This document shows positions 1 through 32,248 of a DNA stretch of 32,248 nt, piece after piece. This DNA comes from Desulforadius tongensis (GTDB taxonomy: Bacteria > Bacillota > Desulfotomaculia > Desulfotomaculales > Desulfohalotomaculaceae): contig NZ_JAFBCW010000030.1 in assembly GCF_016907915.1 (NCBI RefSeq), forward strand, positions 1 through 32,248. The letters run 5' to 3'. Numbering within the stretch: the first letter of the stretch is position 1; every line of letters begins with the position of its first letter. A model generated the notes under the pieces. It made no database searches, had not been told where the DNA came from, and saw only the letters and a list, made by a program, of their open reading frames with translations. A program made the position numbers and the translations under genes.

Positions 1-87
1 CGGACACCCTTGCCTTAAGCTAACGTTTACTGCTACCTTCAACGTTCGGGACTTTCACCCTATAGACATTGCCCATGCCGGGCACAC
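1..87 (-). mobile_element. Group II intron 5' end (partial, runs off window start)
   Basis: On the minus strand the segment starts with GTGTG, the bacterial group II intron 5' consensus, followed by a short GCCC/GGGC hairpin and a GGGTGAAAGTCCC block, as in domain I of bacterial group II introns. The 5' boundary at 87 lies two bases after the T-tract of the terminator at 97-120, which is the classic insertion site of class C (terminator-targeting) introns. The rest of domain I, the reverse transcriptase gene and domains V/VI would lie beyond base 1 and are not visible. The family call rests on recognising the 5' sequence and the terminator context. A truncated intron is equally possible. Confidence 0.75.
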
Positions 88-89
88 AT

Positions 90-120
90 AAAAAAACAAA
101 GGAAGCCTGTGCTTCCTTTG
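90..120 (-). terminator. Rho-independent terminator of rpsF-ssb-rpsR
   Basis: A perfect 10-bp stem (CAAAGGAAGC / GCTTCCTTTG, 97-106 with 111-120) has a 4-nt loop and is followed on the minus strand by seven T's (96-90). It lies just after the rpsR stop. A T-run on the other side (125-130) could let it also work for plus-strand transcripts. It is also the apparent target of the group II intron. Confidence 0.9.
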
Positions 121-133
121 CTGCTTTTTTATA

Positions 134-358
134 TTAATCTATGGTGTAGGGCAATAGTGCCATCACACGGGCTCTTTTAATTGCTGTGGTAAGCATCCGC
201 TGGTGTTTGGCACAGTTGCCGGAAATACGGCGGGGCAGTATTTTGCCGCGCTCGGTGATATATTTCTTAAGACGGGGTACGTCTTTGAAATCTATTTCTT
301 CTTTTTTATCTACGCAAAAGCTGCAGATGCGCTTTTTTCTGCGACGGTCTCTGGCCAT
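134..358 (-). CDS. rpsR: 30S ribosomal protein S18
   Basis: The 74-aa product matches S18 in length and pattern: a basic N-terminus (ARDRRRKKR), a Cys pair at residues 12 and 15 (CSFC), the central [15 protein letters not shown] segment and the [12 protein letters not shown] block. S18 binds the platform of the 30S subunit as a heterodimer with S6, whose gene is the first of this operon. The ATG at 358 is preceded by a strong GGAGGG ribosome-binding site. It is the last gene of rpsF-ssb-rpsR and is followed by a terminator. The two Cys residues keep the zinc-type character of some S18 proteins. Confidence 0.97.
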
Positions 359-373
359 GATTTCCCTCCTTTT

Positions 374-802
374 CTAAAACGGAACATCGTCAGCATCATC
401 GGAGAAACTGATTTCACTGGCAAAACCGCCCGCATCGGCATTACTGTAACTTTCCTGCCCGGCAGGCGCATCGGCCCTCTCTTTGGCCCGGTCTAAGAAG
501 CGCACATTATCCGCCACCACTTCGGCAGCTTTACGCCTTATTCCCTGATTATCGTCATAGGAACGAATTTGCAGGCGACCTTCCACAGCCACTAACCGGC
601 CTTTACTCAAATTGTTAGCACATATTTCAGCCAGTTTCTGCCAAGTAACTACGTCTATAAAGTCAGTTTCTCTTTCGCCCTGTCTGTTTGCAAATGGCCG
701 ATCCACAGCCAAGGTGAACTTGGTTACAGCCACTCCGCTTGTGGTGTAACGGGGTTCGGGGTCGCGTGTTAATCTTCCGATTAAAATTATTTTATTTAAC
801 AT
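374..802 (-). CDS. ssb: Single-stranded DNA-binding protein
   Basis: The 142-aa protein has an N-terminal OB fold (MLNKIILIGRLTRDPE at the start, then TKFTLAVDR and TDFIDVVTW, within about residues 1-105). A Gly/Ala-rich, acidic tail ends in DDVPF, the conserved C-terminal tip that recruits SSB partner proteins. It coats single-stranded DNA in replication, repair and recombination. It lies between rpsF and rpsR, the usual Firmicute arrangement. The ribosome-binding site before the ATG is weak (GGGGTGA with long spacing), which may mean coupling to rpsF translation. Length is slightly short for Bacillus-type SSB but complete at both ends. Confidence 0.97.
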   Translation of the reverse strand: MLNKIILIGRLTRDPEPRYTTSGVAVTKFTLAVDRPFANRQGERETDFIDVVTWQKLAEICANNLSKGRLVAVEGRLQIRSYDDNQGIRRKAAEVVADNVRFLDRAKERADAPAGQESYSNADAGGFASEISFSDDADDVPF

Positions 803-834: not shown

Positions 835-1122
835 TTATTCCTCTTTACGAATAACCACGTGGCGCAGTACTTCGTCAGTAATCTTCAGCACACGCTCTAA
901 CTCATGGGAAACAGCCGGTTCAGCTTTAAAGTTCACAATTACATAAAATCCATCGTTCTGCTTTTGAATGCTGTAAGCCAGGCGGCGTTTGCCCCATTTT
1001 TCAACTTCGGTTACTTCCCCACCGTTGTTTTTAATGAGGCCGGTAAACTTATCAATCACCGCATCAATGGCTTCTTCTTCCAAATCAGCACGTACGATGA
1101 ATGTTAATTCGTAATTACGCAA
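835..1122 (-). CDS. rpsF: 30S ribosomal protein S6
   Basis: The 95-aa product has the S6 ferredoxin-like fold pattern: MRNYELTFIVRADLEEE at the start, the VTEVEKWGKRRLAY segment and a C-terminal ITDEVLRHVVIRK strand. S6 partners with S18 on the 30S platform. The start is a TTG at 1122, set by an AGGAGGTGA ribosome-binding site 6 nt upstream, and the product aligns with the usual S6 N-terminus. It is the first gene of the operon, with a promoter at 1208-1236 and a GC-rich hairpin in the leader. Confidence 0.97.
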   Translation of the reverse strand: MRNYELTFIVRADLEEEAIDAVIDKFTGLIKNNGGEVTEVEKWGKRRLAYSIQKQNDGFYVIVNFKAEPAVSHELERVLKITDEVLRHVVIRKEE

Positions 1123-32113: not shown

Positions 32114-32145
32114 GTTGGCAGTAAGTGAAAGTAAAAAAATACCAG

Positions 32146-32174
32146 TTGACATCAAGGGACAAAGATGTTAAACT
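32146..32174 (+). promoter_or_regulatory. rRNA-operon-type promoter
   Basis: Perfect TTGACA (32146-32151), 17-bp spacer, TAAACT (32169-32174). Downstream are a GCCGC/GCGGC hairpin (32182-32199) and CCTTGAAAACTAAAC (from 32218), a boxA-like leader common before 16S rRNA in Firmicutes. No rRNA sequence is inside the window. Confidence 0.65.
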
Positions 32175-32248
32175 AAATCCTGCCGCTGAACCAGGCGGCC
32201 CAAAAACTGGCAGCGATCCTTGAAAACTAAACAGTGAGAGATGGATGT

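Follow-up and report, generated by a model that had tools for sequence, protein, structure and literature searches.

The rpsR terminator of Desulforadius tongensis as a probable insertion site of a multi-copy group IIC intron

Group IIC (class C) introns are self-splicing, mobile RNA elements. Robart et al. reportedly described, in 2007, bacterial class C introns inserted after intrinsic terminators. Group II introns are bounded by GTGYG at the 5' end and AY at the 3' end, and IIC introns target intrinsic terminator motifs for insertion, as stated in the excerpt available from PMC4424553. An excerpt of PMC8919778 places bacterial-C introns immediately after terminators, with coding sequence spared, and gives the same position for the g6, U1 and U2 types. 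In the excerpt of PMC10190682, the IIC particle is bound to a DNA stem-loop and its IBS1 pairing is short. Here we compare with these systems an insertion at the end of a ribosomal protein gene cluster in D. tongensis. "The window" refers throughout to the whole stretch of DNA analyzed (32,248 nt), which is the entire contig C30 of a 61-contig genome.

The junction behind rpsR

With little doubt, a multi-copy group IIC (class C) intron begins at the rpsR terminator, and bases 87 to 1 of the window (minus strand) are its 5' end. A sequence-only reading of this DNA had placed a group II intron right after that terminator, and its proposal is supported by the repeated 5' end, by domain V/VI on a syntenic contig (C40) and by a full-length relative. 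In minus-strand order, the terminator hairpin (120..97) is followed by seven T (96..90), an A and a T at 89 and 88, and then GTGTG from 87 (87..83), which agrees with the 5' boundary motif GTGYG; the coordinates and the two-base gap from T-tract to intron that had been read here are exact. Repetition of the intron in the genome is the reason why the contig breaks off within it.

Rfam at gathering scores reported tRNA alone over the whole window. The missing intron match carries no weight, because a shortened intron scores below the cut-off: RF02003 on the 87 nt gave 19.2 bits against a cut-off of 49, a weak score since only 87 nt are present.

The ribosomal protein operon had also been taken to be unbroken, and rpsF, ssb, rpsR and the terminator are indeed all intact (Table 1). 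The three genes are spared because the intron sits behind the terminator. As a separate observation, the rpsR terminator hairpin (window 97-132) has a T-tract on the plus strand too, ending in TTTTAT near base 132; the terminator looks bidirectional, though the intron occupies one side only.

Table 1. Positions of the features at the window edge, all on the minus strand.
Feature	Position	Strand	Basis
Very probable group IIC intron, first 87 nt	1..87	-	intron base 1 = window base 87, GTGTGCCCGGCATGGGC...
TTTAT, probable IBS1 (exon-binding target) directly upstream of insertion	88..92	-	TTTTAT at 13 of 15 5' ends
T-tract of intrinsic terminator, seven T	90..96	-	sequence
Terminator hairpin, perfect 10-bp stem and 4-nt loop	97..120	-	-18.6 kcal/mol folded with flank
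rpsR, ribosomal protein S18, intact	134..358	-	Pfam Ribosomal_S18, 97.6 bits
ssb, single-strand binding protein	374..802	-	Pfam SSB
rpsF, ribosomal protein S6	835..1122	-	Pfam Ribosomal_S6

The other side of the insertion and a full-length relative

The rpsR gene was detected in 57 of the 60 genomes searched in the order, D. tongensis included. Loci from 30 of these 57 genomes were compared, one being our own and 29 coming from relatives, one of which has just 102 nt downstream. DNA 3' of rpsR in the 29 relatives was matched against the 30 loci of D. tongensis that hold an intron 3' end: 13 relatives gave a match, every one of them to the same locus (L033, at which contig C40 ends), and for the remaining 16 nothing matched any of the 30.

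On C40, the intron 3' end reads CTACTCGAT, with the AY motif at its boundary. It is followed by sequence resembling the rpsR-downstream interval of the same genus, then by a MazG-like gene (PF12643, 106 bits) and a gene for a DUF2232 membrane protein (178 bits). C40 carries the gene found after rpsR in relatives and is therefore taken as the other side of the insertion; identified in this way by synteny, it is the putative mate of the window copy, the two ends being joined by synteny and not by sequencing reads. The sequence-only reading had pointed past the window edge for domain V/VI, which is present on this contig.

Only four relatives were examined in detail, G003 and G002 (same genus) and G006 and G001 (same family); each has a hairpin after rpsR, and none of the four has an intron there. 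Most simply, the intron arrived after the split from these four lineages. The DNA flanking the junction is too diverged from that of the relatives for a base-exact insertion site.

With only partial matches to PF00078 in the family (three, in a search of 7 genomes), the full-length form of the intron was drawn from the order. A copy in G003 holds part of a reverse transcriptase (RT) and is ended by a contig end. The full-length intron of G016 (L229) is 1888 nt long; the D. tongensis 5' end has 89.5% identity to its first 85 nt, and the C40 3' end has 94.5% identity to its last 91 nt. Because both ends match this one intron, the 5' end in the window can be tied to the domain V/VI at 19 contig ends of its own genome. 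Rfam matches of L229 are group-II-D1D4-3, D1D4-1 and Intron_gpII, with RF02001 at 135.1 bits.

A 473-aa frame is present in the G016 intron and in five copies in G079. The G016 protein contains RVT_1 and GIIM (RT and maturase) and has no further Pfam match at E 0.001, hence no detected endonuclease domain. Its best PDB matches are the GsI-IIC RT (579 bits) and a further IIC protein, 7uim (377 bits), whose intron organism we take to be Eubacterium rectale (E.r.); LtrA scores far lower (159 bits). Searches of the readable D. tongensis assembly with RVT_1 and GIIM found no RT or maturase domain; RT traces in this genome are two fragments of 26 residues each, of which one lies in C16. Repeated bodies are often missing from assemblies. 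Of the earlier expectation of an RT gene, then, the part concerning the readable genome itself failed, and what stands is an RT in the G016 intron, which matches both own ends and whose protein is closest to a IIC protein. We infer the RT-carrying body of the rpsR copy and, by synteny, the linkage of its two ends.

Copies, contig ends and alternative readings

At an E value of at most 0.1, a 95-nt query from the 5' end matched the D. tongensis genome 17 times. Fifteen of these matches lie at contig ends, that of the window among them; of the other two, one is a degenerate copy within C16 and one a weak match of 26 nt. The 15 contig-end copies agree over 86 nt without a difference. When all 122 contig ends were sorted, 15 were the 5' end of the IIC family and 19 its presumed 3' end, 10 and 10 were 5' and 3' ends of a second group II intron family (type A), 52 had other sequence, and 16, belonging to eight small contigs, read as N, which leaves 106 readable ends. 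Contig breaks fall 86-95 nt within the introns, with the exception of two 3' ends at 133 nt. Among readable ends, 3' ends of the IIC family are commoner than 5' ends (19 vs. 15), and copies without a normal 5' end, or ends in unreadable contigs, may lie behind this surplus. RF00029 (domain V/VI) exceeded its Rfam cut-off at 30 genomic positions, of which 29 are contig ends, C40 among them, with one additional match under the cut-off. A scan of genome contigs with the 5'-end pattern found 8 stretches, all in one MAG, Desulfotomaculum sp. GB_MAG20_002.

Of the 106 contig ends that are readable, 54 belong to the two intron families, so introns drive much of the fragmentation of this assembly. For readers of genomes, this means that two such families can break up an assembly and, in doing so, hide their own reverse transcriptase genes.

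Among other readings, the one that survives best is that the rpsR copy is a dead or internally deleted remnant and not a full RT-bearing intron. Deleted forms do occur, as the degenerate copy in C16 keeps both ends of the IIC family in order with most of the middle lost, and G006 carries two remnants of ~100 nt; the readable D. tongensis assembly, moreover, is without an RT. We nevertheless consider this reading unlikely: the 86-nt identity among the 15 contig-end copies speaks for recent spread, breaks 86-95 nt inside both intron ends (133 nt at two 3' ends) are as expected of long near-identical repeats, and the assembly would have read across a remnant that was short and unique. It is very improbable that the junction is an assembly chimera, with the intron not beside rpsR in the living genome; although the junction lies only 87 nt from a contig end, its geometry equals that of 14 others, and the predicted other half was found in C40, which ends in the intron 3' end and bears the genes expected after rpsR. 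The end of an insertion sequence or other DNA transposon would, like IS elements, give a multi-copy, assembly-breaking repeat, but the GTGYG start, the 89.5% identity of the 5' end to that of a full-length intron bearing domain V/VI and RT/maturase, and the one-sided insertion after hairpins leave practically no room for it.

Several derivatives and repeats were seen beside the IIC family ends. In the C16 copy (C16:49166-50370), AT-rich sequence has taken the place of the intron middle; it contains repeats of TCTCAAATTA-like motifs and may be an inserted element. The two G006 remnants (L099 and L101) each lie behind a hairpin; in both, a common CCGAACGGT repeat joins the initial ~45 nt of the intron to the last part of domain V and to domain VI. 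A search for their junction pattern, with up to 3 mismatches allowed, gave 1 genome of 113, a count that more diverged junctions would escape. G006 also holds a derivative of about 500 nt. At the far edge of the window, bases 32119-32248 form a repeat common, by eye, to contig ends of C48, C13, C17 and C37, which by resemblance is probably an rRNA operon leader. Another repeated end, AACCCGTCAGGGTTACGATGAAGC...GGGGTAGTTCAC, is found at contig ends of C8, C28, C29, C31 and C51 and recalls the right end of IS605-type elements. At contig ends of C16 and C35, direct repeats form an array that resembles a CRISPR array.

Hairpin targets, a second family and known systems

Folding gave a hairpin upstream of the junction at 15 of 15 5' flanks; the class C preference for sites just after an intrinsic terminator hairpin, which had been proposed from the rpsR junction, thus holds at all 15 of these sites. 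TTTTAT is present at the junction in 13 of the 15 (exceptions C23, TTGTTGT, and C24, TTATTAT). With the window's own site left out, the 45-nt upstream flanks of the other 14 sites have a mean of -21.9 kcal/mol (weakest -16.1), compared with a mean of -5.4 kcal/mol for 94 controls, comprising every TTTTAT site in the window whether in coding sequence or outside it (Mann-Whitney p = 1.1e-9). A value of -15 is reached by four of the 94 controls. Of these, only the rpsR site, itself a member of the control set, goes to -16.1 or lower, and another is the rpsR terminator hairpin on the plus strand. The -18.6 kcal/mol of the window flank was equalled or passed by 13 of 2000 random windows. The test shows that insertion sites are hairpin sites; it says nothing of every terminator being a target.

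Pairing between EBS1 and IBS1 in relatives was considered by eye and without a control. Six G079 copies combine the flank CTTT with the loop AAAG; G016 combines TTTGT with ACAAA, and G011 combines ACTT with AAGT. In the G006 copy L098, flank and loop do not fit. These matches are suggestive only, and fixing EBS1 by eye was dropped, given the A-rich loop and the ease of four-base matches.

The second family, type A, starts with GTTTGCCTGGCATG and lies at contig ends of C10, C29, C35, C36, C38 (both ends), C42, C43, C44 and C53. Eight of its 10 flanks end in TTATT, and the flanks fold with a mean of -18.5 vs. -5.0 for 230 TTATT controls from the window (p = 5e-7); two of the 10 are weak (C10, -9.9; C35, -7.0). 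Of 113 genomes in the order, 42, our own among them, have matches to the type A 5' end. Three related copies were examined, two of 2095 nt with a 449-aa frame and a third with a 455-aa frame, the 3' end of which was not located by the script. The one type A protein tested against PDB gave 336 bits with the GsI-IIC RT, 284 with 7uim, 168 with 6me0 and 167 with LtrA, and the type A RNA matches RF02001. The idea that type A might be a surprising non-C intron was dropped on these grounds, its best protein match being the GsI-IIC RT and its RNA matching RF02001; insertion of other types after terminators had, besides, already been reported, according to the excerpt of PMC8919778. A possible home for type A is among the g6, U1 and U2 introns. 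One might further imagine that the two families share out the terminators of their host by a few junction bases (TTTAT vs. TTATT), with at least 25 operon ends, that of rpsR included, carrying a retroelement whose transcription terminator read-through would gate; this idea is tentative, and on balance we doubt it.

For the group IIC intron at rpsR, the steps of insertion would be those of published IIC biology. A ribonucleoprotein of intron RNA and reverse transcriptase/maturase would recognize the DNA of the terminator hairpin together with a short T-rich IBS1, the RNA would reverse-splice into the strand just past the T-tract, and reverse transcription would complete the copy. At rpsR, the intron would thereby come to lie downstream of the terminator and ahead of the MazG-like gene, which the gene for the DUF2232 membrane protein follows. 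Splicing and mobility of the rpsR copy itself are likewise what we infer.

Our literature search returned no paper uniting a group II intron, rpsR and a terminator, and group II introns are absent from the literature matches listed for Desulfotomaculum/Pelotomaculum; neither result has a bearing on novelty of kind. The IIC intron at rpsR is alike to class C introns after terminators in its GTGYG start, in the hairpin and T-tract directly upstream, and in the unharmed host gene, and the RT/maturase of its relative is likewise without a detected endonuclease domain. Among the features tested there is no difference; the target here is the rpsR terminator. The G016 protein aligns over nearly the whole chain with GsI-IIC (6ar1) and 7uim (579 and 377 bits), and a DNA stem-loop target with a short IBS1 is shared with these systems as far as the excerpt of PMC10190682 describes them, whereas the IBS1 sequence differs from that in the E.r. 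structure. Insertion after terminators is also shared with the g6, U1 and U2 introns in the available part of PMC8919778. The intron at rpsR is a further copy of the published class C target choice, real but ordinary, and offers a clean added example of IIC terminator targeting, behind a ribosomal-protein gene cluster that it leaves unharmed.
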